The notes beneath the pieces were generated by a model that was not told the DNA's origin, ran no database searches, and was given only the letters and a program-made list of their open reading frames with translations. From NCBI GenBank assembly GCA_023374045.1, contig CM041780.1, positions 29,630,337-29,694,336 of the forward strand: 64,000 nucleotides of DNA. The letters run 5' to 3'. Shown piece by piece: positions 16,397 to 61,493 of the stretch. Position numbers and translations under genes: made by a program. Positions within the stretch are counted from its first letter, which is position 1. Every line of letters starts with the position of its first letter. The DNA comes from Limonium bicolor. Taxonomy: Eukaryota > Streptophyta > Magnoliopsida > Caryophyllales > Plumbaginaceae.

Positions 16397-17431
16397 CTAT
16401 TGGATTCATAATTGGATAAGTATGGATGGTGGACACAAGTGGAATTAAATCAACACTGCTCTTTATTGATAAACCAACCATCATACATGCCGTGTCTCTA
16501 ATACACGTTACTAGTACATTACATGATATTATGCATTTAATACTTCCTAAAGGTAAGGTTCAGGCATCCTGGTTTCATGTGTGTGGCATTGATTATTGCC
16601 GGCGGTGCCGTATTCAACTTGATCTTGTTGATCCTGTGATACAGCATCCTAGAGTTCCCACCCATGATTAGGACATCTCCTGATCTCAATACCAGTTTCT
16701 GTGCGAGGTCCACACGCTTCTGCTCGCTATACAAAAATATGGCGTCATCACCAATGGACCAAGACACTACGGGCACTCCTTGTTCAAGAGATTCCACTGT
16801 CTCGTCCTTGTCTTGGTGTAACCCAAGTCTTCCTTCTTTCTCATAGAAGTTGACGATACAGAGGTCCGCTTCCAGTGCGGGGATCGGTTCATGTTCGCAT
16901 TGTTGTGCAAGTTCTACTGCTTGTGTGACGAGTGTCTGAAATTCTGGTGGTATTGTCGGTGGCGTCGCTGCATCTTGTGTTCGTGTCTCCTGGTATGTCT
17001 TGGTATAAGGATTCCAATCCTTTCCCAAGCACATCATTTTTAGCTTCATCTTCGCTCCACCGGGGAATTCGGGTGTATAAAATCCACCATGACCCATTCC
17101 TAGTTCGTTGCATCGCCGAATGATTGAGATTTGTGCTTCGGGTGTCAGTATCCCCTTAATAAGATCATACCTGGTCGGATGACCTGACACTATTCGTTGG
17201 TGTAGTAGTGGTTGGTGATGTCGATCTCTTCTTGATTCAGGTTTACCGGTATCGGGTAACAGATACTAAAGTTTCCTAAGGTTATAAATTTCATCTACGG
17301 TGAGTACTAGTTTCAACTACTTCACTTCATGCTTAATACACACTTCAATTTGCTTACTCATGCATTCACCCATAAAGTTACTCTAATACTTAGACATGCT
17401 ACTTCAAGGATTAAAGGTTTAGATTAATTAC
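16397..17431 (-). other. Intron 3 (long form) of element A, containing the AlkB exon
   Basis: Donor CCCAG/GTAATT (GT at 17430-17431) and acceptor ATAG/GTTG (AG at 16397-16398), about 1,035 bases. The donor leaves one base of a codon and the acceptor supplies two, so Gag joins protease in frame. An alternative acceptor for the same donor, TTAG/GAAAC (17276-17277), gives a 156-base intron opening the AlkB exon in the same phase. Unspliced, the frame meets TAA almost at once. Confidence 0.65.
16537..17275 (-). pseudogene. AlkB-like Fe(II)/2-oxoglutarate dioxygenase of element A, degraded
   Basis: AlkB enzymes oxidatively remove methyl groups from nucleic acid bases. From the Met at 17190 a 217-residue frame is open to the stop. 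It contains NFY, HxD (H125, D127 in LGLHQDKDE), H185 (MLYHRI) and R215. The first 2-oxoglutarate arginine of the R-x5-R motif is Cys (C209 in GCLNLTFR), and Gly after the distal His is Arg. Upstream of that Met the ancestral frame is broken by TAG (17190-17192) and a one-base deletion near 17148, judged against B. The first codons of the apparent frame are therefore out of the ancestral frame. The exon begins after the acceptor at 17276. It sits between zinc knuckles and protease, as in B and D. Probably inactive. Confidence 0.93.
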
Positions 17432-26136: not shown

Positions 26137-29100
26137 TGTAACACCCCATCCAAAGCCTTTCGTGGTTATCGCAATCTGAAGACTTAATCGAAAACGTCGC
26201 AGCGGAAATATACAACACCTGGACCTTGCCACGGTCTGATCGTTAGAATATACCGGCTTATATACTTACAATACTTATCCAAAAACACTTATCCAACTTA
26301 AACATCAACATTCGTATACCACAACCAACCGAGTGCTAGTATCTTAACATAATCCCAAACTTACATCAGTTTAATATAAACAGTCGGGAGCACAGGCGCA
26401 ACCCGAACTCAAAATAAAAGTCCCCACCTAAGTCTAACCGCTCCTACTCTCGTAGTGCGTCCTCATGGGCCTCTTACCTGCAAGTGTAAAAATAGCCCCC
26501 GAGGGGGTCAGCACGAATGCTGGTACACCCTCTCATGGCCCCCAAGCTAACGGGGCTACGACGACTAATTGTCGATAGCATGGAAATTGATTACATACAC
26601 AAGCATAATATGAAGTGCAAAAACAATAACCACAGATGAACATATATAGTTCACAAACAATGAACGACTCAAGCGTCCTCTTATCAAGTGGGTTAGTAAC
26701 CCCCTCCTTAGTCCTCATTTCCTTAATCTTAGTTCCTTACCTTACCTTAATCTTAATCTCAATCTTAATCTTAATCTCAGTATACAAACCTTTCCTGGAA
26801 GGGATTGGTTGTAGCTTAATTCGAACCTGGGATTTAGGTGATCCCACCGCACCATCTTAATGCCACCTACTCTGGACGGGAGTCCAGCGTAGCTGAGCCG
26901 GCAACCGGCCCTAGGCTACAAGTCCGAAGACAAGTCCTTAAGCGGAGGGCGGATCTGATTCAGATACCGTCCCCCTTTTTCCTTAGCATGCATGACCGGA
27001 GATCGGTCCCGGGTTTCCTCACTCAAGTTCCAGTTAGTAGACATCTTAAACCCATGTGCTAGCTAAGCCTTAACGGGCATTAACCAACAACCATCAAACT
27101 TAATCTTATTCTTAACTCAGTAAGTACTAATCTTGTTAGTAACAATCTCAAAGTCTCGCGGGTTAGTGTAAATATAACACAATCACACGAGAACAATATA
27201 ACCGGTTGCATGCTTTATCTTGTTTTAGTCATAGCAAATAAACAGATAGCACACAAGCCGAGGGACACCTCGTTAGCAAGCAGGTCACAAGAAGGATTGT
27301 ACCGTTCACCGTCGATCGTTGTTTGACTAATCTTCTTCGGGGTCCCAACTCACAAACCTAAAACATTCATTCATTTTTAGGTTATTAGTTATTTGCACCT
27401 TACTTAACTCACTTAGTCCCTAAGGACTTCCATCAATAACCTCTCAAGTCTTTATCACTTAGTCTTACAAACTTAACTTTAAACATTAAAACTTATACTT
27501 AATCTTAACTTAATTCCTTAAGTTCTTAGGGCCCAATCATTACTACCCTACTAATGGCATACCCTAATACCATTAACACCTCAGAAATTTAAAATTTCTT
27601 TTTTTTTTTTTTTTTTAGGCTCGACCGGACTTACCGACCGGACTTGCCAAGTCCGGTCCATTCCAGTACCCTTTTACCGTTGGAAAATTCACTCCGACCG
27701 GACTTACAGTCCGGTCCTATGTCCGGTCGATTCCAGAGACTTATAACCGTACAAAATTCATGCCGACCGGACTTGACAAGTCCGGTCCCATGTCCGGTCC
27801 ATTCCAGAAACATTTTCCCTCACAAACAAGCCCGACCGGACTTGTAAGTCCGGTCCCCAAGTCCGGTCGATTCCAGAAACATTTTCCGGTAGTGTAACAG
27901 AGCCCGACCGACCTTGCAAGTCCGGTCCTAAGGCCGGTCGGCTCTAGAAACTTTTTCTAAATTCTCTTTCAACTCCAAACTTCTCCTCATATATTCTAAT
28001 ATGTTATAACCTCATTTGGGCACCTCAAATACACCTTAAGCCCTCCTTAAAATACCTTAATTCACCCACCAAAATCCATCTTAGTCATTATGCATTTTCC
28101 TTGTAATAATGCTAACACTTGTAATGCTTTCCTCTAGGTTTCTAGGTGGTGGTTCATACCTAGTCCACTATGCCAAATGTTTTCTTCACCACTATAACAT
28201 CATCTCCCAAGCACTCTCACTATCTAAAACTCTTTTAAATTTTCTTAGTTCCTTAACAAGTCTAAACTTCCATCATCATCACATTATTTCCTTCCTAGTT
28301 GTGCATCAACATTTGCCTAAGTCCTAAACACTCGAATCATTCTCTTGATTCCTAAATCTTCCATGGTGATACCTAAGTCATCATAAGTCATTAAAACACC
28401 TTAACTTCACCCTTTTTCATCAAGACAACCCATAGAACATTCCTAGTACTTCCTTAGTCATTAAATTCCCTTAGGATATCTTAAACACAAAAACTCTCCT
28501 TTAAATTTTGCCATGGGTTCTCTAGTATATAGTACCTCCTAACACATGTTTTTCTCCATCAACAACCAATACCACACAAATTCTCATCACAATGGCTTAA
28601 CACCCAATTACAACAAAACACACCACACCATCATCATATAGTGCTTAAACTTAAAATGCTTGGCACTTAGCCCTTAAATGACATAATCTTAACCACTGAA
28701 TTTCCACATATATATGCCTTCAACCTGCGAATACACTCAACAAGGCTCCCATTGAAATAAAATGCTTCTTGTACTTCACCTTTATATTCTTAAACTATCT
28801 CTTTTCTCATTTGCTCCTTAGTCACAAGTTCACAAGAATAGTCATTGTTTCTCCTAGGTTTTATAGCACCTTCCCAATATAAACTCTACACTAAACTCAT
28901 CATATACCCACATCTCATTCCCTTAAAACAACAAAACACCTTAAGGTAAGTAATTTACCTTGTTTTCTCTCACAAGCTTAAAAGCTTTTCTCCTTAGGTT
29001 TTCTTTGTTCAATCTCGGTCACCAATGTGATTCTCCTTGCCAATGTTCTAACCAATATCCAATGACTCCAATGAGTACTAGATAACACATTAACCCTAAG

Positions 29101-30254
29101 GAACAAACCCTAGGTTTAAAAATATGTTTTAAGGTATTAATGTGATTGTTTTACCTTGGTTTCTCAAGACAAACTTGGATGTGAAGCAAGAAGGACTTCC
29201 TCTCTCCTTTGAAGAGTAGAAACAAGCTAGAACAAGGCATAAACATGGAGTCCCATGAGTATATATTTTCGGACATGTGAAGAAAATGGTGGAAACCTAG
29301 ATTTTCTTACACTTTCTTTACCTTAAGAGAATGGAGATGCCAATGGAGTCTCCAAACTTGAATTTCCTCCTCTAATGGTGGTTTGACTTGGCACCAAAAT
29401 GAAGCTCTTGAAGTTTTGAAAAGATAGAAAGGAGAGCTTGAGCTAACTAAGAAGAATATGTATTTTGTTTTGGATTTGGAGCTAAAATGAGCAAGATGTG
29501 GCCAAGGAATGGCTTTCATGGAGGTGAGCTCTACGTGAAATGGAGAAGAGAAAGAAGCAAGAAATCGTGTGAAACAAGGAAATGAAGAAGTGAGGAGAGA
29601 GTAAGCAAAATGTGATATTTATCTTAAAAGGTGAATAGTACTTTATGCTTTATAACTTATTTGCTTTCTAATTACTAATGATCATGAAGGTGGTGACTCA
29701 CCTCCTAAAAACCGGCCCCCTTTTAGTAATGAGGGTAGTTTAGTCTTTGTTGACCAAATGTCTCACTTATATAGACTTATGTTATAAACTAGCTTAATTA
29801 ATTCACTATTCATCAAAAACAAGGCACATTGTTTGTGAAATTTTTGATTTCCCATTGATATAGACTCCAAATGTGATACTATATAGTACACATGTTAATT
29901 AAAGAGTAATGATGGACATTTAGCCATTCAAACTCATTTACAAGACAATTTTTCAAAAACATGCTTTAAGACTCCTTAAAGCACATTTTGTGTTTTAACT
30001 AGTTTTCAAGCTTGGTTTTCTTTGGTAATTGACTTAAAATGACCATTAGGATATTACTAAGGTCTTAGAACAATATTTGGGTACTCTCCCATGTCTCTCC
30101 AAGCTTAGAGCACGTTTTTGCTTAAACTGCTCTTTTTGGTGTTTCCTTATATTTCTTTGATTAGAAATGTTTCTTAATGTTTCTAAGGCATTATTTAGCC
30201 TCCTTATATCTTAGTTTATCATTTAAACACCATATCTAAGTTTGGGGTATTTCA
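26137..30254 (-). repeat. 3' LTR of element B (4.1 kb)
   Basis: TGTAACACCCC...GGGGTATTTCA, followed by the polypurine tract. Nearly identical to the 5' LTR at 36606-40744 and to solo LTR E in reverse. It contains a (CTTAAT)-like simple repeat near 26725-26785, a T-run at about 27600-27616 and the palindromic array 27619-27945. No gene is visible. Confidence 0.95.
27619..27945. repeat. Palindromic array in the B 3' LTR (GACCGGACTT type)
   Basis: About five irregular units of about 65 bases, each pairing GACCGGACTTG with CAAGTCCGGTC and ending in ATTCCAGAAACATTTTC-like spacers. A poly-T run flanks it on the left. Confidence 0.92.
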
Positions 30255-30565: not shown

Positions 30566-33500
30566 CTAGTCAGTAAATAAAGAAGGGTACTTCGCCCTCA
30601 TCTTATCCTCTAATTCCCACGTGGCCTCTTCGACATCCTGGTTAGACCGAGAACCTTCACCAGTCGCACTGACTTGTGGCGAGTGTCCCTAGTCTTACTG
30701 TCCAAGATTCTCTGAGGATCTCCACGGATCTCATGTTTGGTTCTAAAGTCAACCTCTCAGGTTCTAACACATGGGAGGGGTGGTGCATGTATTTCTTCAG
30801 CTGTGAAACATGAAAAACATGCACTTTACCCAGCTCAGCAGGTAAATTCAACCTGTAAGCAACCGGGCCCACCCGCTCCGTAATCTCATAAGGACCAACA
30901 AATTTCGGGCTTAACTTGCCCTTCTCCCCTGCCCAAACCTGAATACACCCTTCATCGGTGATACTCGCAGAAATACCCGGTCGCCCACTGCGAACTCCAG
31001 GTCCCGTCGTCGAACATCAGCATACGACTTCTGCCTATCTTGAGCAGCTTTCATGTTCTCCCTGATTTGCTGAACTTCAGCCTTAACTTGTTCTAAGTAC
31101 TCTGGTCCTATAATGACCGTCTCACTCGACTCATCCCAGCAGAGCGGTGTACGACATGGTCTACCGTACAACGCTTGAAAAGGTGCCATCTTGATCGAAG
31201 CGTGATAGTGTTGTTGTATGAAAACTCGATCAGATGCAATCTATCAATCCAACTGCCCTGGAAGTCTAAGGCACATGCTCTCAGCATGTCCTCGAGTGTC
31301 TGAATAGTACGCTCAGTCTGACCATCTGTCTGAGGATGGAACGCGGTACTCAGTTTGAGTTCTGTACCCAACGCTTCTCTGGTAGCTCTCCAGTACCTCG
31401 AAAGGAATCTGGTATCTCTATCTGACACTATGGTCTTTGGTGTGCCATGATGCCTCATGATTTCTTTCTCAAATAACTCAGCTAATTTGGTCACCTTCCA
31501 AGTATCCTTCATCGGTATGAATCGGGCTACTTTGGTAAGGCGATCCACCACCACCCATATCATGTTGAGACCTCCCCTAGCAGGTGGAAGTCCAACTACG
31601 AAGTCCATGGAGATATCATGGAACTTCCACTCCGGAACTGGCATCGACTGTACCATTCCGCCCGGTCGTCTGTGCTCGAATTTCACCTTCTGGCATGTGA
31701 GACACCTCAAGACGAACTCGGTAACATCTGTCTTCATCCCTGACCACCAGAAGTATCTCTTCATGTCTTTATACATTTTGGAGGCTCCCGGATGGATGGA
31801 AACTGAAGAACAGTGTGATTCTCTAAGTATACGGTCTTTCAGATCCGTGTTACCTCGTGGTATGCATAATCGGCCCTTAAGTCTGATCAGATCATCATCA
31901 TGAAGTCTGAAGTCATATTTCTGACTCTCAAAGGTACCATCTGTCAGCTTCTGTCTGACCTCTCTCATATACTCATCAGTCCTCTGAGCCTCTCGCACCT
32001 CATCAACCAAGCTGGAGAAAGAAACTAGCGAATGGAGTGAGTGTGCTCGACGGCTCAGGGCATCTGCTACAACATTGGCCTTCCCTTCTTTGTATTGGAG
32101 GTCAATGTCATAGTCTTTCAGAAATTCTAACCATCTCCTCTGTCGAAGATTTAACTCCTTCTGAGTGAATATGTATTTCAAACTTTTATGATCGGTGTAG
32201 ATCGTGACACTAACCCCATATAAGTAGTGGCGCCATATCTTCAAAGCGAAGACTACAGCTCCCAGCTCTAAATCATGTGTGGGGTAGTTCTCCTCATGTT
32301 TCTTCAACTGGCGTGAGGCATATGCCACCACCTTGCCATGTTGCATGAGCACGCAACCCAGCCCTCTGCCGGATGCATCACAATAAACCTCAAAGCTCTG
32401 TACCGTCTGGAATGTCAGTACCGGTGCAGTGGTCAGTGAGTCCTTCAAGCGCTGAAATGATCTCTCACAGTCATCTGTCCACAGAAATGGTGCATCTTTC
32501 TTCATCAGACTGGTCATCGGCTTCGCGACCTTGCTGAAATCTCTAACAATCTCCTGTAGTAACCTGCCAGACCGAGAAAGCTCCGGATGTCGGTAACAGT
32601 CTTCGGCCTTGGCCAGGTACGTACGGCATCAATCTTTGCTGGATCCACTGCGATCCCAGCATCTGAGATGACATGACCTAGGAAAGACCTGGTCAAGCCA
32701 AAACTCACACTTGGAGAACTTAGCATATAGCTGGTTCTCCCTTAATATTTCCAACACCCCCCTCAAATGTTCCTCATGCTCAACCTTAGACTTTGAATAT
32801 ATCAGAATATCATCAATAAAAACCACAACCGACTTGTCCAGCTGCTCCCGGAACAAGCGGTTCATCAGATCCATAAACTTCGCCGGTGCGTTCGACAAAC
32901 CGAACGGCATCACTGTAAACTCATAGTGGCCGTATCGTGTCCGGAATGCCGTCTTCTCAATATCTCCCTCCTTAATGGCTATCTGATGATACCCCGATCT
33001 GAGATCAATCTTGGAAACACAGATGCTCCCTTCAACTGATCGAACAGATCGTCAATGCGGGGTAGTGGGTACTTATTCTTCACTGTCACTGCATTCAGCT
33101 CTCTGTAGTCGATGCAGAGGCAGAGACTACCATCCTTCTTCTTCACGAAGAGGACTGGCGCTCCCCATGGTGACACACTTGGTCTAATGAATCCCTTATC
33201 CAACAAATCTTTCAGTTGTTCTTTTAACTCATTCATTTCTGCCGGAGCCATACGGTATGGTGCTTTGGCTATCGGTCCGGTACAAGGTAGCAGCTCAATG
33301 GTGAACTCTACCTCCCGAGTGGGTGGCATGCCGGGCAGTTCCCGTGGAAATAAGTCGGGGAACTCTGACACTACCGGTAAGTCGGGGTCGAACTCAGGGT
33401 CTCTCTCTACGTCCTGTACATAGCAGAGGTATACTTCTTCCTTTCTCCTTAATTCTCTATGCATTGCCATGGCGGTGATGATCTTAGTCGAAGGCTCTCT

Positions 33501-33937
33501 GGGCCTCTGGCGGTATGATATTGTTACCCCAGTCGGACTCCTGAGCAGCAATCTATGCTCGGCGCAGAGGATACGTCCCTTGTGCCGCTCCAACCAGTTC
33601 ATCCCGAAGATAACATCAAATCCTAGCTTACTGAACTCAATGAAACTGACTGGGAAGTCTTCCCCCTTAATTCTGATGGTGGCTCCTCGGTAGTAACGAG
33701 TGCAACGAACCTTCTCCTTAGACGGGAGCGTAACCGTGAAGTCGGGTAGCTCCTCAGCGTCTAGCCCCAACCTGCTCGCAAATGATGCAGAGACAAAGGT
33801 ATGCGAGGCCCCTGAGTCGAAGAGAACTGATGCCTCAATCCCATTGATCGGAAAGGTGCCGGTGAGGATAGTACCGCTAGCGTCGGCCTGTGCCTCTGTG
33901 AGTATGCTTAGTGCACCTTCCGTACCGAGTCCATAAC
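30566..33937 (-). pseudogene. pol: Protease-RT-RNase H-integrase-chromodomain of element B, frameshifted
   Basis: The exon starts at acceptor AATTAG/GTTATGG (AG at 33938-33939). Protease FDSGAS lies near 33820. RT motifs are present: [28 protein letters not shown] and [11 protein letters not shown]. RNase H ([22 protein letters not shown]) and integrase ([26 protein letters not shown]) follow within one long frame (32517-31108). The chromodomain ends at the TAG at 30566-30568. Compared with A and D, the frame shifts near 33015, 32690, 32545, 31207 and 30925, and again within the chromodomain region. Nearly all are one- or two-base indels. Either pol is truly dead or the consensus sequence has indel errors, since the LTRs are otherwise very similar. 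Confidence 0.93.
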
Positions 33938-34965
33938 CTAATTGTGTTCACAAGCTTCATGAGTATTGATGGTATAACAAGAGTCGTAACAATTTATATG
34001 AACAACACTGTTATTTTATTTATGACCATCCTGTTTACAACATGTGCTTCAATCTTACATCTCATTTCTCATCTCATTCTAACATTACATGGCTAATATT
34101 GTCTAAAGGTTAGGTTTAATCTTCCTGGTCTCATATGCGTCGCATTGATTACCGCTGACGGTGCTGTATTCAGCTTGATCCTCTTAATCCCATGGTATAA
34201 CATCCTTGATTCTCCTCCCAAAATTAATACATCACCTGACTTAAGTACTATCTTATCTGCACGGTCCGCACGCTTCTGCTCGCCGTATAAAAACTCCGCA
34301 TCATCTCCAATGGACCAAGACACTACGGGTATCCCTCTTTCGAGAGACTCCGTTGTCTCGTCCTTATCCTGGTGTAGTCCCAGTTTCCCATCTTTTTCGT
34401 AGAAGTTTACAATGCAAATGTCTGGCTGGATGTCTGGAATCGGTTCAGCTTCCAACTGCTGAGCGATTTCCATGACTTGTGTAATAACTGGATGGAACTC
34501 TTCGAGTATTCCCGGTGGTGAGACTCCATCTTGCTCCCTTGTGGTTTGGTAATTTTTGGCATACGGATTCCAATCCTTGCCCAAGCTCATCATCTTTAAT
34601 TTCATCTTTGCTCCCCCTGGGTACTCTGGTGTGTAAAAACCTCCCGGTCCCATTCCTAGTTGATTGCACCTCCTGATGATGGCTATTTGCGCTTCGGGTG
34701 TCAGGTATCCCCTTAATAAAATCATACCTGGGCGGATAACCTGACATTGTTCGGTTGGAAAGTCCTTGGTTTTGATGTCGGTGTGCTCCGGGTAAGATGT
34801 AGATGGTATTGGGTAGCATATGTTGAATCTTCCTAAAGTGGTAGTAGGTTATGTCTTACTTAGGTTCTAATCTCATCTTATTCTTACTTAACTCATATAT
34901 TTCACCAAACATGCATGATAATGCGGTAAGCAGGTAGTTTTATTACTAAATGGTTATAGTGGTAC
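33938..34965 (-). other. Intron 3 (long form) of element B, containing the AlkB exon
   Basis: Donor GGCCAG/GTACCAC (GT at 34964-34965), acceptor AATTAG/GTTATGG (AG at 33938-33939), about 1,028 bases, phase 1, joining zinc-knuckle Gag to protease in frame. The same donor with acceptor CTTTAG/GAAGATTC (34833-34834) makes a 133-base intron opening AlkB in the same phase. Reading through the donor unspliced hits a stop after a few codons. Confidence 0.7.
34093..34832 (-). CDS. AlkB-like Fe(II)/2-oxoglutarate dioxygenase of element B (intact)
   Basis: Predicted demethylase of methylated bases in RNA or DNA. From the Met at 34725 there are 210 residues: NFY at 107-109, iron ligands H118, D120 (LGLHQDKDE) and H178 (MLYHGI), and 2-oxoglutarate arginines R202 and R208 (GRLNLTFR). 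All key residues are present and the frame is open. The N-terminal block (GGFYTPEY, LKMMSLGKDWNPY) matches the plant ALKBH1 type. The frame extends upstream of that Met for about 36 codons to the predicted acceptor, including FNICYPIP and VIRPGM, which are conserved in A and D. This suggests translation as a spliced Gag extension rather than from the Met. No linked host gene features are seen. Actual activity is untested. Confidence 0.95.
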
Positions 34966-35307
34966 CTGGCCTCGATGAGGGCTCAGGCTCATCGTCCCGG
35001 TCCACCATGTGTAGAGTGGGCCCCGTCTTCTGGGTCGCCCGTGGGTTCTTGTCCGCCGGCTGCTGCACTTTCCTCTGACCGTCAGATCCAGCTCCCTGAT
35101 CGGTCTTGCCCTTGCCCCTGGTGTCGGGCCTATAGGCTCTGCTAGCAGGGTTCCGGTAACACTCATAAGCTCGATGCCCGTAGATACCACAGAAGTTGCA
35201 CTCCACCTTATTCCCCTTACAGTCGAGCCCGGGGTGGTCCTTGTGACACCATCTACAGATGAAGCGTCGCTGGTAGCCACCATCGGCTCCCCTCTCAGTC
35301 TCAGATC
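34966..35307 (-). CDS. gag: Gag exon 3 of element B: two zinc knuckles
   Basis: Nucleocapsid. Knuckles CRWCHKDHPGLDC (CX2CX3HX4C) and CNFCGIYGHRAYEC (CX2CX4HX4C), then a Lys/Gln/Gly-rich tail ending PSSRPG at the donor. Acceptor CATCAG/GATCTG (AG at 35308-35309), phase 1. The residues after PSSRPG in the unspliced frame (TTITI, stop) are intronic. Confidence 0.88.
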
Positions 35308-35389
35308 CTGATGATTCATATCGTCAACTCTCATATCTCAAACGGTTACAAATTTATTTCTTAACTCATTCAATATCAATTTTTCTCAC
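35308..35389 (-). other. Intron 2 of element B gag
   Basis: Donor CCAAAGG/GTGAGA (GT at 35388-35389), acceptor CATCAG/GAT, 82 bases, phase 1. The position matches A and D. Confidence 0.72.
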
Positions 35390-35642: not shown

Positions 35643-35728
35643 CTGCTTTTCCATAGTATTAGTCACACTTATTTCTCATAATCTAAATCTTATTCACTAC
35701 TTACTCAAATTTCAATCGTTCTTATTAC
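35643..35728 (-). other. Intron 1 of element B gag
   Basis: Donor CTTGCAG/GTAATA (GT at 35727-35728), acceptor AAGCAG/GAGTGC (AG at 35643-35644), 86 bases, phase 0. The donor context is almost the same as in D. Confidence 0.75.
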
Positions 35729-36370
35729 CTGCAAGGTAGTGTAACTCGTCGGCCCCATGCCGTAGCGGAGTCGATGGCTAAGCCCGCCATAGAAGCGGTC
35801 CACCAAGATCTGGTCAGAATACCCTAGACCCGGCCGAAGACGGAGCAAGGCAGTGAACTCTGAGTAATACTCGTCCACTGTCATCTTGTCCGACTGCTTG
35901 AGCGCATCCAACTGCAAGCGCTTCTTCGTCTGGACATGGGCGGGGTAGTACTTTGCCCGTAGCAAGGCGGTGTACTGCTCCCAGCCGAACTCTGGGTTGG
36001 CCATATGCTCGACCCTCACCAGCTTCCACCAATCGCCCGCCGCCCCCTTCAGGTAGAAAGCAGCTAAGCGCACCTTGATCCCAGCAGGGACATCAAGGGT
36101 CTCGAAGGCGGTCTCCAGCTCGGAGATGTACGCCTCAAGCTTGGCGGGATCGGTCTCCCCCTTGAAGTGCGCGGGTCGAAGATCAGCAAGACTCTTCACC
36201 CAGTTTGGTTCCCTAGGTTGTGGCGGTGGAGGTGGTGCACCCACACCAGGCTGATAGCCCATATGCCCTAAAGCGGCAGCTACGATCTCAGCGATCGTCT
36301 GCCCTCCAGGTATCCCTGGAATATCCTCACCCCGGCCGCGACCTCGGCCTCCTCTAGGGCGTCCTGCCAT
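35729..36370 (-). CDS. gag: Gag exon 1 of element B: matrix/capsid
   Basis: Structural protein forming the virus-like particle. I choose the Met at 36370 (MAGRPRGGRGRGRG) because it aligns with the D start MSGRPRGRGRG and, as in D, follows TTCAG. An upstream in-frame Met at 36382 is possible. A Pro-rich linker (GAPPPPPQPREPNWVKSLA) follows, then the retrotransposon Gag domain with VRLAAFYLKGAAGDWWKLV and KRLQLDALKQSD. It ends at YTTLQ on the intron 1 donor. Open throughout. Confidence 0.92.
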
Positions 36371-36588
36371 CTGAACAAGCATAACTTACATTAGATTCGT
36401 ACTCACCATTGTTTTGGTTAGTAAATTTATAACGTCCGTAGACGGTAAAGACAATCCACACTTATTAGTGGTCATCTGACTCTACTCACTCTAACATCTC
36501 ACACCCTTAACCCAATACTCACTTCTTAACTTATATCCTAGCTCGGTGGTTACTTATATCCGGTATTTCTTGATCAGAGCGTAACTAC
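36371..36588 (-). other. 5' leader of element B
   Basis: Non-coding leader between primer site and gag. The base run TTCAG just before the gag ATG resembles a splice acceptor and is also present in D. A leader intron is possible but I could not fix a donor. Confidence 0.55.
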
Positions 36589-36600
36589 GCTCTGATACCA
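36589..36600 (-). promoter_or_regulatory. Primer-binding site of element B (initiator Met-tRNA)
   Basis: Minus strand TGGTATCAGAGC, five bases after the 5' LTR. It overlaps a perfect inverted repeat, ATCAGAGCGTA-GT-TACGCTCTGAT. Confidence 0.95.
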
Positions 36601-36605: not shown

Positions 36606-39600
36606 TGTAACACCCCATCCAAAGCCTTTCGTGGTTATCGCAATCTGAAGACTTAATCGAAAACGTCGCAGCGGAAATATACAACACCTGGACCTTGCCA
36701 CGGTCTGATCGTTAGAATATACCGGCTTATATACTTACAATACTTATCCAAAAACACTTATCCAACTTAAACATCAACATTCGTAATACCACAACCAACC
36801 GAGTGCTAGTATCTTAAACATAATCCCAAACTTACATCAGTTTAATATAAACAGTCGGGAGCACAGGCGCAACCCGAACTCAAAATAAAAGTCCCCACCT
36901 AAGTCTAACCGCTCCTACTCTCGTAGTGCGTCCTCATGGGCCTCTTACCTGCAAGTGTAAAAATAGCCCCCGAGGGGTCGCAACGAATGCTTGTACACCC
37001 TCTCATGGCCCCCAACCTAACGGGCTACGATGACTAATTGTCGATAGCATGGAAATTGATTACTACACAAGCATAATATGAAGTGCAAAAACAATAACCA
37101 CAGATGAACATATAGTTCACAAACAATGAACGACTCAAGCGTCCTCTTATCAAGTGGGTTAGTAACCCCCCCTTAGTCCTCATTTCCTTAATCTTAGTTC
37201 CTTACCTTACCTTAATCTTAATCTCAATCTTAATCTTAATCTCAGTATACAAACCTTTCCTGGAAGGGATTGGTTGTAGCTTAATTCGAACCTGGGATTT
37301 AGGTGATCCCCCCCCCATCTTAATGCCACCTACTCTGGACGGGAGTCCAGCGTAGCTGAGCCGGCAGCCGGCCCTAGGCTACAAGTCCGAAGACAAGTCC
37401 TTAAGCGGAGGGCGGATCTGATTCAGATACCGTCCCCCTTTTTCCTTAGCATGCATGACCGGAGATCGGTCCCGGGTTTCCTCACTCAAGTTCCAGTTAG
37501 TAGACATCTTAAACCCCGTGTGCTAGCTAAGCCTTAACGGGCATTAACCAACAACCATCAAACTTAATTCTTATTCTTAACTCAGTAAGTACTAATCTTA
37601 GTTAGTAACAATCTAAAGTCTCGCGGGTTAGTGTAAATATAACACAATCACAGCGAGAACAATATAACCGGTTGCATGCTTTATCTTGTTTTAGTCATAA
37701 TAAATAAACAGATAGCACACAAGCTGAGGGACACCTCGTTAGCAAGCAGGTCACAAGAAGGATTGTACCGTTCACCGTCGATCGTTGTTTGACTAATCTT
37801 CTTCGGGGTCCCAACTCACAAACCTAAAACATTCATTCATTTTTAGGTTATTAGTTATTTGCACCTTACTTAACTCACTTAGTCCCTAAGGACTTCCACT
37901 CAATAACCTCTCAAGTCTTTATCACTTAGTCTTACAAACTTAACTTTAAACATTAAAACTTATACTTAATCTTAACTTAATTCCTTAAGTTCTTAGGGCT
38001 CCAATCATTACTACCCTACTAATGGCATACCCTAATACCAATTAACACCCTCAGAAATTTAAAATTTCTTTTTTTTTTTTTTTTTTTAGGCTCGACCGGA
38101 CTTACCGACCGGACTTGCCAAGTCCGGTCCATTCCAGTACCCTTTTACCGTTGGAAAATTCACTCCGACCGGACTTACAAGTCCGGTCCTATGTCCGGTC
38201 GATTCCAGAGACTTATAACCGTACAAATTCATGCCGACCGGACTTGACAAGTCCGGTCCCATGTCCGGTCCATTCCAGAAACATTTTCCCTCACAAAACA
38301 CAAGCCCGACCGGACTTGTAAGTCCGGTCCCCAAGTCCGGTCGATTCCAGAAACATTTTCCGGTAGTGTAACAGAGCCCGACCGACCTTGCAAGTCCGGT
38401 CCTAAGGCCGGTCGGCTCTAGAAACTTGTTTCTAAATTCTCTTTCAACTCCAAACTTCTCCTCATATATTCTAATATGTTATAACCCCATTTGGGCACCT
38501 CAAATACACCTTAAGCCCTCCTTAAAATACCTTAATTCACCCACCAAAATCCATCTTAGTCATTATGCATTTTCCTTGTAATAATGCTAACACTTGTAAT
38601 GCTTTCCTCTAGGTTTCTAGGTGGTGGTTCATACCTAGTGTAACCACTATGCCAAATGTTTTCTTCACCACTATAACATCATCTCCCAAGCACCTCTCAC
38701 TATCTAAAACTCTTTTAAACATTTTCTTAGAGTTCCTTAACAAGTCTAAACTTCCATCATCATCACATTATTTCCTTCCTAGTTGTGCATCAACATTTGC
38801 CTAAGTCCTAAACACTCGAATGCATTCTCTTGATTCCTAAATCTTCCATGGTGATACCTAAGTCATCATAAGTCATTAAAACACCTTAACTTCACCCTTT
38901 TTCTTCAAGACAACCCATAGAACATTCCTAGTACTTCCTTAGTCATTAAATTCCCTTAGGATATCTTAAACACATAAACTCTCCTTTAAATTTTGCCATG
39001 GGTTCTCTAGTATATAGTACCTCCTAACACATGGTTTTTCTCCATCAAACAACCAATACCACACAAATTCTCATCACAATGGCTTAACACCCAATTACAC
39101 CAAAACCACACCACATCATCATATAGTGCTTAAACTTAAAATGCTTGGCACTTAGGCCCTTAAATGACAATAATCTTAACCACTGAATTTCCACATATAT
39201 ATGCCTTCAACCTGCGAATACACTCAACAAGGCTCCCATTGAAATAAAATGCTTCTTGTACTTCACCTTTATATTCTTAAACTATCTCTTTTCTCATTTG
39301 CTCCTTAGTCACAAGTTCACAAGAATAGTCATTGTTTCTCCTAGGTTTTTAAGCACCTTCCCAATAAACTCTACACTACAACCATCATATACCCACATCT
39401 CATTCCCTTAACAACAAAACACCTGGTAAGTAATTACCTTGTTTTCTCACAAGCTTAAAAGCTTTTCTCCTTAGTTTTCTTTGTTCAATCTCGGTCACCA
39501 ATGTGATTCTCCTTGCCAATGTTCTAACCAATATCCAATGACTCCAATGAGTACTAGATAACACATTAACCCTAAGGAACAAACCCTAGGTTTAAAAATA

Positions 39601-40744
39601 TGTTTTAAGGTATTAATGTGATTGTTTTACCTTGGTTTCTCAAGACAAACTTGGATGTGAAGCAAGAAGGACCTCCTCTCCCCTTTGAAGAGTAGAAACA
39701 AGCTAGAAAAAGGCATAAACATGGAGTCCCATGAGTATATATTTTCGGACATGTGAAGAAATGGTGGAAACCTAGATTTTCTTACACTTTCTTTCTTTAC
39801 CGAGAATGGAGATGCCAATGGAGTCTCCAAACTTGAATTTCCTCCTCTAATGGTGGTTTGACTTGGCACCAAAATGAAGCTCTTGAAGTTTTGAAAAGAT
39901 AGAAAGGAGGAGCTTGAGCTAACAAAGAAGAATATGTATTTTGTTTTGGATTTGGAGCTAAAATGAGCAAGATGTGGCCAAGGGAAGATGGAGCTTTCAT
40001 GGAGGTGAGCTCTACGTGAATGGAGAAGAGAAAGAGAGCAAGAAATCGTGTGAAACAAGGAAGAATGAAGAAGTGAGGAGAGAGGTAAGCAAAATGTGAT
40101 ATTTATCTTAAAAGGTGAATAGTACTTTATGCTTTATAAGACTTATTTGCTTTCTAATTACTTAATGAGTCATGAAGGTGGTGACTCACCTCCTAAGAAA
40201 CCGGCCCCCTTTTAGTAATGAGGGTAGTTTAGTCTTTGTTGACCAAATGTCTCACTTATATAGACTTATGTTATAAACTAGCTTAATTAATTCACTATTC
40301 ATCAAAAACAAGGCACATTGTTGTGAAATTTTTGATTTCCCATTGATATAGACTTCCAAATGTGATACTATATAGTACACATGTTAATTAAAGAGTAATG
40401 ATGGACATTTAGCCATTCAAAACTCATTTACAAGACAATTTTTCAAAAACGTGCTTTAAGACTCCTTAAAGCACATTTTGTGTTTTAACTAGTTTTCAAG
40501 CTTGGTTTTCTTTGGTAATTGACTTAAAATGACCATTAGGATATTACTAAGGTCTTAGAACAATATTTGGGTACTCTCCCATGTCTCTCCAAGCTTAGAG
40601 CACGTTTTTGCTTAAACTGCTCTTTTTGGTGTTTCCTTATATTTCTTTGATTAGAAATGTTTCTTAATGTTTCTAAGGCATTATTTAGCCTCCTTATATC
40701 TTAGTTTATCATTTAAACACCATATCTAAGTTTGGGGTATTTCA
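36606..40744 (-). repeat. 5' LTR of element B (4.1 kb)
   Basis: TGTAACACCCC...GGGGTATTTCA, next to the primer site. It differs from the 3' LTR mainly by single-base insertions and deletions (for example near 36785, 36817, 36970 and 37020). Array at 38091-38415, T-run at about 38070-38087. No gene is visible. Confidence 0.95.
38091..38415. repeat. Palindromic array in the B 5' LTR
   Basis: Same unit order and sequence as 27619-27945. Confidence 0.92.
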
Positions 40745-46439: not shown

Positions 46440-48981
46440 TGAAATACCCCAAACCTTATTATGTTGTTTAAACATTTAAATATGGTATATTAAGACTAAA
46501 TAGAGTCTTAGAAGCATTAGTAAACAAATCTAAACGATAGAAAACACAAAATGTGCTTTAAGGTCAATAAGAGCCAAAATGTGCTCTAAGCTTGGGATAA
46601 GCTTGGTTAAGACCTAATGAACTTATCAAGACCTTATTTATATACTAATGAACATATCAAACCAATTAGCAAAGAAAACCAAGCTTGAAAACAAGTTAAA
46701 ACACAAAATGTGCTTTAAGGAGTCTTAAAGCACATTTTTGAAAAATTGTCTTGTAAATAAGTTTTGAATGGATAAATGTCCATCATTACTCTTTAATTAA
46801 CATGTGTACTATATAGTATCACATTTGGAAGTCTATATCAATGGGAAATCAAAAATTTCACTTCTATGTGCCTTGTTTTTATGAATAGTGACTTTTATAA
46901 GCTAGTTTGTAACATATGTTATAATAAGTGAGAAAATTGACAAATAAAGACTATAATACCCCTAAGTACTATTGGGGGCCGGTTTTCTTAAGTGTGGTGA
47001 CTCACCACTCTCTTGTTAACATGTTAAGTAAATAAATATGACTAACTAAAGTACTATTTACTTTATAACTACAAATATCTTCTAAAAGCAAGTTTATCTT
47101 CATTTCTCCCTTCTTCCTTGCATTCTCACGGTTCCAACTCCATCTTCTTCCTCTCTTTCACGGTAATACCACACCACCACCATTAAACTCCATCTTTGAT
47201 CTCTTGTAACTTCTAGCTCACTTAACCAAATCAAAAACAAACACCACCATTCTCTTAGTCTCATCAAGCTCTTCATTCCTATCTTCTCAAAACTTCAGGA
47301 CCACCATTTCAGTGCCATGGAGTTCCACCATTGAAGGAGCTTGAGCTTGTATTTCTACATATTATTGCTCTCCTTTGCTTCTAGGTAAGGAATCTTAAAT
47401 AAACACTTCATTTCCTCCATGTTTTGTTGTTGACCGAAAATGCCCATTGAAGGTGCTCTTTATATGGCTTTGTTTTAGCTTCATTCCAACCTTTCATGGA
47501 CTAGGTGGAGTCCTCTCTTGATAGATATTCAAACTCTCTTCAAAGACCAAGGTAAAACAACTACATTAATGTTTTTGAAATAATGTAAACCTAGGGTTTA
47601 CAATGAGATGAAGCATAAGACTTGTATACTCATTACATCGTTTGTATAATGTTTAGAAGTTGACAAACAATCTAAAGCCTTGCCGATTTTAAACAAGGAA
47701 ACAAGAAAGAAGTTTGTGAGGAAAAGAGGTAAATATGCTAACCTAATGTGGTTTAAAGTCTTAGGAGAAATGAGCTTGTATTGCTTATGAAAATGATCTA
47801 AGGAGCCAATGGGAAGTGACTTAGAAGAATGCTCTTAAGGGTTTAGTAAAAGGCATATGAGTTGTTGAGTGTATTTGCAGGTCAAAGGCAATTATATTGT
47901 GGAAATTCAGTGTTTATGATTATGCATTTTAAGGGCCTAAGAGCCATGTTATTTAAGGGCCTAAGAGCCATGCTATTTAAATTATGCACTATATTGTGAT
48001 GAAGTGCTATATGTGTGAAGTTTGTGTATAAGAAAGTGTTTGATGGATTTTTAGTGTTCTTGGTTGTTTGATGGTGAAAACAATGTGTTTTGGTTAGTAA
48101 TGTTCTAGGAGAACCTATGTCAAAATTTAGGTAACAAACAAGAAGTTCTAAGGTTAAATTGAGTTTGATAAGTTAAGAAATGTTTAGAATGGTTAAGTGC
48201 TTTCCTTGTGAAAGAAACATGCATTAAGGTGTTTAATGATGTAAAAAGGGCTTAGGTAATGTTCTAGAGGATTTAGAATGCAAAAGAATGCTTTGGGACA
48301 GTTCAAGATTCTTGATGAGGTTGTATTTAGGACTTGTGTATTGTTGGTGAAAAAGGGATGAGGTGGATTGTTATATGAGAAGCTATAAACTTGTGAAGAT
48401 GTTTAAGAAATTGTTTAGGAAGAAAAGATGTTTGGGAGATGATGTAGTAGTGGTGAGGAAACATTATTGGCATAGTGGTTATCATAGGTATGAAACACCA
48501 CTTACAGAACCAAGAAGGAAATAACATAAGTGTTAGAAATTTCGGTATGGAAGGAGTATGTGTTAAGGAGATAGATAATGAATTTATGGATGTTGTATGA
48601 GGGTTTGAGGGTACTAAATGATGTTAGGAAACATTAGGAGGCTTTAGGAGAAGTTTGGTGAAGATTTGACAAAGTTTGGGCAAGTTTTGATGGCATCCGA
48701 CCCAGGGGTCCGACCCAAGTTTGGGTCGGACAGCCTCTGTTAGACGTCAGTAAATGGTTCTGGAACGGTCCGACCCAGAGGACTTGGGTCGGACATGGGT
48801 CGGACGGTCATGTTTTGGTGGACGGTAAATGTTCTGGAATGGTCCGACCCAGTCGAGTGAGTCGGACATGGGTCGGACATGGTTGTTTTGTAAGGCGGTA
48901 GATGTTCTGTAATGGTCCGACCCAGTCGAGTGAGTCGGACATGGGTCGGACATGGTTGTTTTGTAAGGCGGTAGATGTTAT
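46440..48981 (+). repeat. 5' LTR of D, left part
   Basis: Starts TGAAATACCCCAAACC and shares blocks with E and B's LTRs. Its array begins at about 48696. E interrupts it within the array. Excluding E, the whole LTR is about 4.09 kb. Reading frames in it are not gene-like. Confidence 0.9.
48696..48981. repeat. Palindromic array in the D LTR, left part (GTCCGACCCA type)
   Basis: Units of about 70 bases pairing GGTCCGACCCA with TGGGTCGGAC, with a GTAAATGGTTCTGGAA-like spacer. The array continues at 53106-53294 after E. Confidence 0.9.
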
Positions 48982-51900
48982 TGAAATACCCCAAACTTAG
49001 ATATGGTGTTTAAATGATAAACCAAGATATAAGAAGGCTAAATAATGCCTTAGAAACATTAAGAAACATTTCTAATCAAAGAAAATATAAGGAAACACCA
49101 AAAAGAGCAGTTTAAGCAAAAACGTGCTCTAAGCTTGGAGAGACATGGGAGAGTACCCAAATATTGTTCTAAGACCTTAGTAATATCCTAATGGTCATTT
49201 TAAGCCAATTACCAAAGAAAACCAAGCTTGAAAACAAGTTAAAATACAAAATGTGCTTTAAGGAGTCTTAAAGCACGTTTTTGAAAAATTGTCTTGTAAA
49301 TGAGTTTTGAATGGCTAAATGTCCATCATTACTCCTTAATTAATATGTGTACTATATAGTATCACATTTAGAGGTCTATATCAATGGGAAATCAAAAATT
49401 TCACAACAATGTGCCTTGTTTTTTATGAATAGTGAATTTATTAAGCTAGTTTATAACATAAGTCTATATAAGTGAGACATTTGGTCAACAAAGACTAAAC
49501 TACCCTCATTCACAAAAGGGGGCCGGTTTCTTTAAGTGTGACTCGCCACACTTATCTAACTAAGTAAAGAGAAAGCAAGATAAGTAAGTTATAAAGCATA
49601 AAACACTATTCACCTTTTAAGATAAATATCACATTTGCTTACCTCTCTCCTCACTTTTTCATTTTCCCTTGTTGCCCACGATTTCTTGCTCTCTTTCTCT
49701 TCTCCATTCACGTAGAGCTCACCTCCATGAAAGCTCCACCTTCTCTTGCACACCACTTGCTCATTTAAGCTCCAAATCCAAAACAAAATACATATTCCTC
49801 TTAGTTAGCTCAAGCTCCTTCTTCCTATCTTTTCAAAACTTCAAGAGCTTCATTTTGGTGCCAAGTCAAACCACCATTAGAGGAGGAAATTCAAGTTTGG
49901 AGACTCCATTGGCATCTCCATTCTCTTAAGGTAAAGAAAGTGTAAGAAAATCTAGGTTTCCACCATTTTCTTCACTTGACCGAAAATATATACTCATGGG
50001 ACTCCATGTTTATGCCTTGTTCTAGCTTGTTTCTACTCTTCAAAGGAGAGAGGAGGTCCTTCTTGCTTCACATCCAAGTTGTCTTGAGAAACCAAGGTAA
50101 AATAATCACATTAATACCTTAAAACATATTTTTTAAACCTAGGGTTTGTTCCTTAGGGTTAATGTGTTATCTAGTACTCATTGGAGTCATTGGATATTGG
50201 TTAGAACATTGGCAAGGAGAATCACATTGGTGACCGAGATTGAACAAAGAAAACCTAAGGAGAAAAGCTTTTAAGCTTGTGAGAAAACAAGGTAAATTAC
50301 TTACCTTAAGGTGTCTTGTTGTTTAAGGGAATGAGATGTGGATATATGATGAGTTTAGTGTAGAGTTTATATTAGGAAGGTGCTATAAAACCTAGGAGAA
50401 ACAATGACTATTCTTGTGAACTTGTGACTAAGGAGCAAATGAGAAAAGAGATAGTTTAAGAATATAAAGGTGAAGTACAAGAAGCATTTTATTTCAATGG
50501 GAGCCTTGTTGAGTGTATTCGCAGGTTGAAGGCAAATATATGTGGAAATTCAGTGGTTAAGATTATTGTCATTTAAGGGCCTAAGTGCCAAGCATTTTAA
50601 GTTTAAGCATTATATGATGATGTGGTGAAGTTTTAGTGTAAATTGGGTGTTAAGGTGTCGTGATGAGAATTTGAGTGGTATTGGTTGTTTGATGGAGAAA
50701 AACCATTTGTTAGGAGGTACTATATACTAGAGAACCCATGGCAAAATTTAAAGGAGTGTTTAAGTGTTTAAGATATCCTAAGGGAATTTAATGACTAAGA
50801 AAGTACTAGGAGTGTTCTATGGGTTGTCTTGATGAAAAAGGGTGAAGTTAAGGTGTTTTAATGACTTATGATGACTTAGGTATCACCATGGAAGATTTAG
50901 GAATCAAGAGAACGTATTCGAGTGTTTAGGACTTAGGCAAATGTTGATGCACAACTAGGAAGGAAATAATGTGATGATGATGGAAGTTTAGACTTGTTAA
51001 GGAACCCTAAGTAAATGTTTAAAAGAGTTTTAGATAGAGAGAGATGCTTGGGAGATGATGTTATAGTGGTGAAGGAAACATTTGGCATAGTGGTTACACT
51101 AGGTATGAACCACCACCTAGAAACCTAGAGGAAAACATTACAAGTGTTAGCATTATTACAAGGAAAATGCATAATGACTAAGGTGGATCTTGGTGGATGA
51201 TTTAAGGTATTTTAAGGAGGGCTTAAGGTGTATTTGAGGTGCCCAAATGAGGTTATAACATATGAGGATATATGAGGAGAAGTTTGGAGTTGAAAAGGAA
51301 TTTAGAAACAAGTTTTGGAGCCGACCGGCCTTAGGACCGGACTTGCAAGGTCGGTCGGGCTCTGTTACACTACCGGGAAATGTTTCTGGAATCGACCGGA
51401 CTTGGGGGACCGGACTTACAAGTCCGGTCGGGTTGTTTGTGAGGGGAAAATGTTTCTGGAATGGACCGGACATGGGACCGGACTTGTCAAGTCCGGTCGG
51501 CATGAATTTAGTACGGATAAGTCTCTGGAACGACCGGACATAGGACCGGACATGTAAGTCCGGTCGGAGTGAATTTTCCAACGGTAAAAGGTACTGAATG
51601 GACCGGACTGGCAAGTCCGGTCGGTAAGTCCGGTCGAGCTAAAAAAAAAAAAAAGAATCCAATTTCTAAAATGGTAATGGGTAATGAGGTATGCCCTTGG
51701 TAGGGTAGTAATGATGGGACCCTAAAACTGAGGAATTAAGTAAGATTAAGTATAAGTGGTAATGTTAAAGTTAAAGTTTGTAAGATTAAGTGATAAAGAC
51801 TTGAGAGGTTATTGAATGGAAGTCCTTAGGGACTAAGGAGTTAAGAGGTGCAAAAACTAATAACCTAAAATGAATGATGTTTAGGTTTGTGAATTGGGAC

Positions 51901-53105
51901 CCCAAAGAAGGTTAAACAAACAACGATCGACGGTGAACGGTACAATCCTTCTTGTGACCGCTTGCTAACGAGGTGTCCCTCGGCTTGTGTGCTATCTGTT
52001 TATTTGCTATGACTAAAACAAGATAAAGTGCAACCGGTTATATTGTTCTCGTTGTGATTGTGTTATATTTACCAACCCGCGAGATTTGAGATTGTTACTA
52101 ACCAAGTTTAGTACTTACTGAGTTAAGATAAGAGTTAAGTTGATGGCTGTTGGTTAATGCCCGTTAAGGCTTAGCTAGCACATGGTGTTTAAGATGTCTA
52201 CTAACTGGAACTTGAGTGAGGAAACCCGGGACCGATCTCCGGTCATGCATGCTAAGTGAAAGGGGGACGGTATCTGAATCAGATCCGCCCCCCGCTTAAG
52301 GACTTGTCTTCGGACTTGTAGCCTAGGGCCGGTTGCCGGCTCAGCTACGCTGGACTCCGTCCAGAGTAGGTGGCATTAAGATGGTGCGGTGGGTCACCTA
52401 ACATCCCAGGTTCGAATTAAGCTACAACCAATCCCTCCAGGAAAGGTTTGTATACTGAGATTAAGATTAAGATTGAGATTAAGATTGAGATTAAGATTAA
52501 GGTAAGGTAAGGAACTGAGATTAAGGAAATGAGGACTAAGGAGGGGGTTACTAATCCACTTGTTAAGGGAACGCTTGAGTCGTTCATTGTTGTGAACCAT
52601 GTGTTCATCTGTGGGTATTGTTATTGCACTTCATATTAGTTTGTGTATGTAATAATTTCCATGCTATCGACAATTAGTCGTCGTAGCCCCGTTAGCTTGG
52701 GGGCCATGAGAGGGTGTACCAGCATTCGTGCTGACCCCCTCGGGGGCTATTTTTACACTTGCAGGTAAGAGGCCCATGAGGTGACGCACTACGAGAGTAG
52801 GAGCGGTTAGATTTAGGTGGGGACATTTATTTTGAATTCGGGTTGCGCCTGTGCACCCAACTGTTTATATTAAACTGTTGTAAGTTTAAGATTACGTTTG
52901 AGATACTAGTACTCGGTTGGTTTGGGATTGTGGATGTTGATGTTTTGAGTTGGATAAGTATTTTGGTTAAGTATTGTAATGTTAATCGGTATAATCTAAC
53001 GATCAGACCGTGGCAAGGTCCAGGTGTTGTTTATTTCCGCTGCGACGTATTCGATTAAGTGCTAAGATTGCGATAACCACGATAGGCTTTGGATGGGGTG
53101 TTACA
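48982..53105 (+). mobile_element. Element E: solo LTR of family 1 (4.1 kb)
   Basis: TGAAATACCCC...GGGGTGTTACA, near-identical in reverse to B's LTRs, with its own array (51320-51640) and (TTAAGA)-like simple repeat (52458-52510). It has no primer site or coding region. Unlike B, C and H it lacks a matching five-base duplication: GTTAT on the left, TCTGT on the right. It sits inside the tandem array of D's LTR. Confidence 0.9.
51320..51640. repeat. Palindromic array in E (GACCGGACTT type)
   Basis: Same unit type as in B, reverse orientation, bordered by an A-run at about 51641-51654. Confidence 0.9.
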
Positions 53106-55547: not shown

Positions 55548-55651
55548 GTAATTTAAATGAAGTGTGATATGAATAAGTGTAATCCATAAGTGAGTATTAA
55601 TGTGAGTTTGTGAGTCTGTATTGCGGGGCATGACTGACATCCTAAATTCAG
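55548..55651 (+). other. Intron 1 of element D gag
   Basis: CTTGCAG/GTAATT to AAATTCAG/GAGTGC, 104 bases, phase 0. An in-frame TAA lies just after the donor, so the knuckles can be reached only by splicing. Confidence 0.75.
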
Positions 55652-55913: not shown

Positions 55914-55993
55914 GTAATTATTTAATCATGTGTGACAAGTTGAAGTGTATGATGTTAAGTTGTGAAATAAGTATTGATTGTGTATTGTGATAG
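55914..55993 (+). other. Intron 2 of element D gag
   Basis: CCTAAGG/GTAATT to GTGATAG/CAG, 80 bases, phase 1. An acceptor three bases later (55996) would also keep the frame. Confidence 0.7.
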
Positions 55994-56338: not shown

Positions 56339-56485
56339 GTACCGCCTAAACTGTTGAATGGAATAAGTAATTGCATACCACATTTCATGCATGTGTGTAT
56401 TAGTTAGTCCAAGTGTATTATCATGTGAGTAAAGAGTTAAAGTATAGTGTGAAAGTCACCTAATTAGATAATTCTAAACTTAAAG

Positions 56486-61375: not shown

Positions 61376-61493
61376 ACAACTAGATAGGAGGAACCAATAA
61401 CCAAGGAAGTTTCACATATAGGCTTAGTTAGTCACATCAAGCTCAGTTAGTCACACAACAGTTTCATTTTGAAATCCATTCAAGATCAGTTGG

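Follow-up and report, generated by a model that had tools for sequence, protein, structure and literature searches.

The nearest described relative of the elements reported here is Gypsy_Pa_2799 of Phalaenopsis (Alvarado-Marchena et al. 2022, PMC9289625). It is presented there as an element of the Tat/Ogre lineage, 25.5 kb long with 6.4-kb LTRs and a tRNA-Arg primer site, in which gag-pol forms one ORF and an ALKBH5-like AlkB, able to demethylate m6A in single-stranded RNA in vitro, occupies a separate ORF2. The same paper discusses AlkB domains of plant RNA viruses (Alpha- and Betaflexiviridae, Closteroviridae), for which an action on RNA is proposed. Among host enzymes, rice OsALKBH1 (PDB 5xeg/5xoi) is described in PMC10469495 as a 6mA demethylase acting on ssDNA. 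Introns in plant LTR elements are already known as well (Ogre, EVADE, BARE; PMC3735527, PMC12786077, PMC6317226). Ogre carries a coding-region intron that is spliced in only part of its transcripts (Neumann 2003 and Steinbauerova 2008, via PMC6317226 and PMC12786077), and in the Ty1/copia elements BARE1 and EVADE spliced RNA makes a short Gag (PMC3735527, PMC12786077).

We examined a 64,000-nucleotide stretch of Limonium bicolor DNA, hereafter the window, which holds three elements, A (-), B (-) and D (+). In all three, an AlkB dioxygenase domain (PF13532) follows the Gag zinc knuckle and precedes the protease, with E values of 1.8e-41 in A (16537-17190, -), 2.2e-45 in B (34093-34725, -) and 1e-39 in D (56712-57218, +). 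Gag lies upstream and protease/RT downstream in each case, which bears out the position that the preliminary description had assigned to the domain; the outer bounds given there (17275, 34832 and 56486) turn out to be exactly the three predicted 3' splice sites. The AlkB frame of B is open. That of A is damaged by an in-frame stop within the N-terminal extension and by an R-to-C change in RxxxxxR, and that of D is frameshifted near 56680. Element B is laid out as follows.

26137..30254, minus strand: 3' LTR, 97.4% identical to the 5' LTR
30575..33937, minus strand: protease-RT-RNaseH-integrase, frameshifted in this copy
33938..34092, minus strand: AlkB stop to 3' splice site 2, containing AATAAA
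33938..34965, minus strand: alternative intron of 1028 nt from gag to protease, with AlkB within (the corresponding joint is seen in D-subfamily retrocopies)
34093..34832, minus strand: AlkB coding segment, opened by 3' splice site 1 and closed by the stop codon, comprising the N-terminal extension (FNICYPIP...) and the AlkB domain (PF13532, splice coordinates, AlphaFold)
34833..34965, minus strand: intron 1 of 133 nt (GT...AG) between the gag end and AlkB (splice model; T and GC content)
34966..35323, minus strand: zinc-knuckle stretch of Gag, up to the 5' splice site (open frame; zf-CCHC match weak, below cut-off)
35708..36385, minus strand: Gag capsid part (Retrotrans_gag, E 2.4e-16)
36589..36600, minus strand: primer binding site TGGTATCAGAGC, 5 nt after the LTR
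36606..40744, minus strand: 5' LTR, TGAAATACCC...GTTACA

The corresponding parts of A and D are these.

7673..9070, minus strand: A integrase with candidate C-terminal chromodomain (Chromo 21.6 bits against a cut-off of 25.1, E 2.1e-4)
14428..16396, minus strand: A protease-RT part of Pol, which resumes at 7679-9076
16397..16536, minus strand: A AlkB stop to 3' splice site 2
16537..17275, minus strand: A AlkB coding segment, damaged
17276..17431, minus strand: A intron 1, 156 nt
46440..54654, plus strand: D 5' LTR, split by a B-family LTR at 48982-53105
54660-54671, plus strand: D primer binding site
55548..55651, plus strand: D GT-AG intron within gag, 104 nt (absent from 3/8 gag-protease retrocopies)
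55914..55996, plus strand: D GT-AG intron within gag, 83 nt (absent from 3/8 gag-protease and 5/8 gag-AlkB retrocopies)
56339..56485, plus strand: D intron 1, 147 nt (absent from gag-AlkB retrocopies)
56339..57408, plus strand: D alternative intron, 1070 nt (absent from gag-protease retrocopies)
56486..57218, plus strand: D AlkB coding segment, frameshifted
57409..60220, plus strand: D protease-RT-RNaseH-integrase, broken

The window contains further related insertions. The B-family LTR at 48982-53105 is 93% identical to the LTRs of B and has no visible target duplication, and a gag fragment at 46312-46443 (-), 73% identical to B gag, is probably the gag of A continued beyond element C. Element C itself (18108-46162, +) has 5.36-kb LTRs that are 98% alike and a 5-bp duplication, GCAAG; it hosts the nested B and interrupts the gag of A. 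Its LTR ends and its primer site (23470) are the same as those of the AlkB family, and its internal sequence, about 2.7 kb when B is excluded, has no stop-free stretch above 90 codons, making C a candidate non-autonomous partner of that family. C-type LTR copies also lie at 9079-14420, inside the pol of A and with GTAAG repeats on either side, and at 60219-64000, running into the integrase of D.

The AlkB family is a high-copy, chromovirus-like Ty3/gypsy family. Its integrase follows RT-RNaseH, the order found in plant chromoviruses, and the Chromo matches of A and of P0223 (E 2.1e-4 and 0.0031) are both below the curated cut-off. B has LTRs of 4.1 kb, is bounded on both sides by the 5-bp target duplication GGATT, and has a polypurine tract, AAGGGGGG, 5 nt before the 3' LTR. 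The primer site TGGTATCAGAGC, equally near the 5' LTR, we take to be of the initiator tRNA-Met type. As set out in PMC3605345, chromoviruses show a 5-bp duplication, a tRNA-Met primer site no more than 3 nt from the LTR and a tract directly at the 3' LTR; compared with this, the primer site and the tract of B, at 5 nt each, are slightly off. The long LTRs resemble those of the Tekay elements in that paper, and the Tekay label is plausible for the family.

We then asked what kind of AlkB the elements carry. The best PDB sequence match is rice ALKBH1 (5xeg, E 1.8e-71), followed by E. coli AlkB and then ALKBH1, while no chain named ALKBH5 occurs among the 21 matched PDB sequences. The AlphaFold model of the B AlkB has a mean pLDDT of 92.2, and its top Foldseek hits are OsALKBH1 5xoi and 5xeg (5xoi with TM 0.85/0.91). 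By both sequence and structure matches, the element AlkB is of the ALKBH1 type and not of the ALKBH5 type. It shares 51-52% identity, the fold and the catalytic residues with OsALKBH1, and its N-terminal extension FNICYPIP...RPGM matches the FDIC...RPGM of host plant proteins (motif F[DN]IC...RPGM). N142, Y144, H153, D155 and H213 are invariant across 44 rows including E. coli AlkB, and both arginines are nearly so.

Despite this likeness to the host gene, the element AlkBs group apart from it. In an unrooted 49-row tree, whose bootstrap was not fully settled, seven element-type AlkBs (A, B, D and the four database proteins P0001-P0004) are separated from 42 host proteins with a branch support of 100/100. 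The element group is left unrooted because E. coli AlkB, on which a first tree was rooted, forms a long branch with which support for the group was 45; that tree was dropped and E. coli AlkB left out. P0223 is an open Pol of 1095 aa, 72% identical to that of D, and P0002 and P0223, each on an ENA contig of 26,561 bases, are, from this equal length, probably neighbours in another source. No relatives of the B AlkB, the AlkB alignment or the D Pol were found in viral contigs, and none in prokaryote genome contigs or in phages; none of the 50 plasmid records matched reaches 60% identity, and the five listed ones come from bacteria. A search of annotated proteins of 392-1247 aa returned 386 matches, of which the top two are long Smallanthus proteins and most of the named ones host AlkB proteins. 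Among the 120 of these listed we recognised no Gag-AlkB fusion, and gag and RT Pfam domains are absent from every one of them.

Careful examination of the borders of the AlkB segment revealed how it could be joined to gag. The end of gag reads CCAG|GTA in A, B and D, a shared 5' splice site, and two 3' sites follow, AG|GA before AlkB and AG|G[TC]T before the protease. Without splicing, the gag frame of all three elements stops 2-6 codons beyond the 5' site. When spliced in silico, both joints are in frame in A, B and D, the AlkB arm of A running into its in-frame stop. AlkB ends at a stop codon of its own, after which 140-190 nt of AT-rich sequence lead to 3' splice site 2. Intron 1 measures 156 nt in A, 133 nt in B and 147 nt in D, and splice sites and phases agree nonetheless; the phase is therefore independent of intron length. 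Columns identical in all three elements make up 50% of the gag end, 23% of intron 1, 60% of the AlkB exon, 28% of the sequence after AlkB and 58% of the protease start, and the introns are 29-35% T and 32-34% GC, compared with 9-17% T and 63-64% GC in the gag end. The 35-codon N-terminal extension precedes the first in-frame ATG and has the look of translated sequence, since the differences between B and D concentrate at the third codon position (5, 6 and 15 at positions 1, 2 and 3). Across 35 rows (32 further loci plus A, B and D), GT is present at the 5' site in 34, AG at site 1 in 35 and AG at site 2 in 34. These counts alone prove little: a single subfamily supplies the majority of rows, and elsewhere in the introns columns score as high as 33-34 of 35; column conservation was accordingly dropped as proof of splicing, neighbouring columns being nearly as conserved.

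We next surveyed the host assembly of 2.92 Gb, in which a first look gave 38,325 PF13532 candidates; 150 of them were scored and 32 of these were fetched. The rows listed among the 150 all clear the cut-off over positions 1-194, with an internal stop in a single one. The order gag-AlkB-protease recurs in 32/32 of the fetched loci, so that, within the plant's own genome, the flanking of AlkB by gag and protease extends beyond the window, a point that the preliminary description had asked to be checked. At two places on C1 (497439466-497470353 and 18345765-18386475) there are runs of four AlkB domains and of five gag-border sites, spaced about 10 kb apart, which suggests tandem arrays of the element.

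Both spliced joints, predicted from A, B and D, were then searched in the same 2.92-Gb genome as 30-letter patterns with 3 mismatches allowed. The gag-protease joint was found at 13 places and the gag-AlkB joint at 12, whereas the reversed-pattern controls gave 0 and 0; the unspliced border of gag and intron, searched for one subfamily (26 letters, 2 mismatches allowed), occurs at 6,712 places. We read eight of the 13 gag-protease and eight of the 12 gag-AlkB retrocopies. In all eight of the former (3 kb fetched each) AlkB is absent. Three of them also lack the two further GT-AG gag introns of 104 and 83 nt, and one of these three has an open frame over the 330 codons that lead up to the joint. 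L039 and L040 of this set lie 9 kb apart and may be a single event. In a tree of the protease stretch, in which many branches are weak, the AlkB-less copies are scattered among AlkB-bearing ones inside the D subfamily. All eight gag-AlkB copies lack the 147-nt intron 1, five of them lack the 83-nt gag intron, and six keep protease sequence downstream; the sequence after the joint is disrupted in L045 and L047, and L042 and L043, 10 kb apart, may again go back to one event.

Since both joints are present as genomic retrocopies, both splices have occurred in the plant lineage; the retrocopies record that occurrence and not its rates. On the simplest reading, both 3' sites have been in use in the plant, and the introns of the element number at least three. 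Because AlkB-less copies exist, reverse transcription of a single copy does not require that it carry AlkB itself; helpers may have supplied what was needed. With two further short introns in the gag of D, removed together in some retrocopies, this is an unusually intron-rich LTR retrotransposon.

To examine whether AlkB has been maintained, we compared substitution rates. Among the AlkBs of A, B and D (208, 175 and 175 codons compared) dN is 0.18-0.21 and dS, near saturation, is 1.7-2.8, giving dN/dS of 0.07-0.11. The trimmed core of the 32 loci plus A, B and D yielded 595 pairs, 556 with finite dS and 555 with dS above 0, and dN is below dS in all 555. The median dN/dS is 0.14-0.15 in the 356 pairs at dS 0.05-0.4 and 0.29 in the 30 closest pairs, in a sample that leans to intact copies because the 32 loci were drawn from a score-ranked list (150 scored of 38,325). 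N-Y, HxD, H and RxxxxxR are kept in 32/32 of these score-ranked loci. AlkB evolves faster than protease/Pol, for which dN among A, B and D is 0.12-0.16, with infinite dS for some pairs in the three-row protease comparison. AlkB is thus under strong purifying selection, and the earlier proposal that the elements inherited it from their common ancestor and retained it agrees with the ratios both in the window and among the own-genome copies. The measurement of dN/dS that had been called for gives values well under 1, and in the score-ranked sample intact copies exist outside the window.

Taken together, we consider it probable that a chromovirus-like family captured a plant ALKBH1-type AlkB in an intron between gag and protease, and that alternative 3' sites turn it into a Gag-carried eraser of element RNA or cDNA. 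The single 5' splice site that closes Gag joins either of the two 3' sites. Use of site 1 gives Gag-AlkB, in frame up to the AlkB stop, use of site 2 removes AlkB and gives Gag-protease-Pol in frame, and unspliced RNA yields Gag alone. The choice of splice site might set the ratio of Gag to Gag-AlkB to Gag-Pol. Through its Gag part, AlkB may enter virus-like particles or reach element RNA, where the enzyme could strip N-methyl marks or damage (6mA/m6A, m1A, m3C) from single-stranded element RNA or cDNA and thereby aid the stability, translation or reverse transcription of the element. Its most likely target would be element RNA or cDNA inside particles, to which Gag brings it. RNA and cDNA are both possible substrates, given that 6mA in ssDNA is a target of rice ALKBH1 (PMC10469495) and m6A in ssRNA one of the orchid element enzyme (PMC9289625).

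Other arrangements of the same parts have to be weighed against this one. The layout in the preliminary description implied that AlkB is part of a continuous polyprotein, and the position it takes in A, B, D and all 32 fetched loci, with Gag before it and protease after it, would fit a single Gag-AlkB-Pol product, made by readthrough or frameshift, from which the protease frees AlkB. We give this hardly any credence. The gag frame closes within 2-6 codons of the splice site, AlkB has its own stop with 140-190 nt of AT-rich sequence behind it, and retrocopies have the intervening segments removed at the predicted sites; AlkB is instead an intron-borne alternative segment, both of whose spliced joints were found. 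Could the joints themselves be uninformative about splicing, the AlkB-less copies representing an older intronless state into which the AlkB intron was later gained at the same point? All 13 gag-protease joints do share one base of the protease exon in which they depart from D, but that base is common among AlkB-bearing copies too. Moreover, the AlkB-less rows are scattered inside the D subfamily in a tree with many weak branches, the more distant A and B have the intron, some copies lack one intron and others three, and the second product, gag-AlkB, exists as well, which together make an intronless ancestor a most improbable explanation. A possible, though on balance rather unlikely, variant is that AlkB serves as an alternative last exon, splicing to site 1 being coupled to polyadenylation at AATAAA to give a short Gag-AlkB mRNA. 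AATAAA occupies matching positions in A, B and D, a coincidence that all three segments reproduce in 4 of 2000 shuffles, and is present in 20/25 rows. The five rows without it (L002, L009, L018, L019 and L020) form one subfamily, however, TGTA is not enriched (164 of 1000 shuffles are as high), and the protease sequence downstream in six of the eight gag-AlkB retrocopies means that those RNAs ran past AATAAA. The signal, initially taken as a sign of a short mRNA, was demoted to this alternative on the strength of the missing subfamily and the six copies that run on; a short form is still conceivable, since retrocopies report full-length RNA only.

As to what AlkB does for the element, a passenger captured once and spread along without benefit would account for the damage to A and D in the window and for the existence of AlkB-less copies. 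We hold this to be very improbable in view of dN/dS values of 0.07-0.15, the active-site residues kept throughout the score-ranked loci, and the deep divergence within an element-only AlkB clade with a support of 100/100. The enzyme might alternatively be aimed at host RNA or DNA, such as m6A-marked defence transcripts or chromatin 6mA, rather than at element nucleic acid. Rice ALKBH1 is described as acting on 6mA in ssDNA and R-loops (PMC10469495), and an action of the orchid-element enzyme on host RNA is proposed in PMC9289625; the fusion to Gag, on the other hand, would argue for action near element RNA, and we regard a host target as unlikely, if worth keeping in view. The Gag-carried eraser of element RNA or cDNA thus stays our preferred reading.

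How does this family compare with the systems described before? The preliminary description had stated that no plant LTR retrotransposon family with an AlkB was known. That broad claim of novelty falls, because Phalaenopsis AlkB Ty3/gypsy elements were published in 2022 (PMC9289625), but not for the present lineage, AlkB type and architecture. Like Gypsy_Pa_2799, as reported there, ours is a plant Ty3/gypsy LTR element that has captured an AlkB and preserved the cofactor-binding residues of that enzyme. In contrast to it, the present family has an integrase of probable chromodomain type, 4.1-kb LTRs, the TGGTATCAGAGC primer site, and an ALKBH1-like AlkB inside an alternatively spliced gag/protease intron. 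It thus falls outside the Phalaenopsis AlkB-Ogre group in the features compared, namely primer site, AlkB type and the intron-borne position. With Ogre, as that element is described in the sources above, it shares a partially spliced intron in the coding region. Yet the Ogre intron lies between gag-protease and RT, whereas ours lies between gag and protease, offers two 3' sites, has AlkB inside and is accompanied by two more introns in gag. Splicing sets the Gag:Pol ratio in BARE1 and EVADE also, but there, in Ty1/copia elements, the product is a short Gag rather than a Gag-enzyme fusion. As in the plant RNA viruses, an AlkB resides in a mobile or viral genome; identity to the named virus matches listed in the structure search is, however, 13-19%, and viral AlkBs are mostly within replicase or polyprotein records, whereas here AlkB is joined to the capsid protein. 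In the open-licence PMC literature we found a single AlkB-bearing LTR family, that of PMC9289625, none with an ALKBH1-type or intron-borne AlkB, and no intron-borne, alternatively spliced accessory enzyme in an LTR element.

What would be new is therefore a three-way splice switch between capsid, capsid-demethylase and capsid-polymerase, a particle-borne eraser, and a second, independent AlkB capture involving a different AlkB type, a combination that we put forward tentatively, with confidence a little short of an even balance. The family numbers thousands of copies in a single plant genome, and its spliced retrocopies are an internal record of RNA processing. The Gag fusion by alternative splicing offers a direct, testable guess at the place where the enzyme acts. 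If true, the capture of two different AlkB types by two different Ty3/gypsy lineages would point, by convergence, to methylation of element nucleic acid as a constraint on plant retrotransposons.
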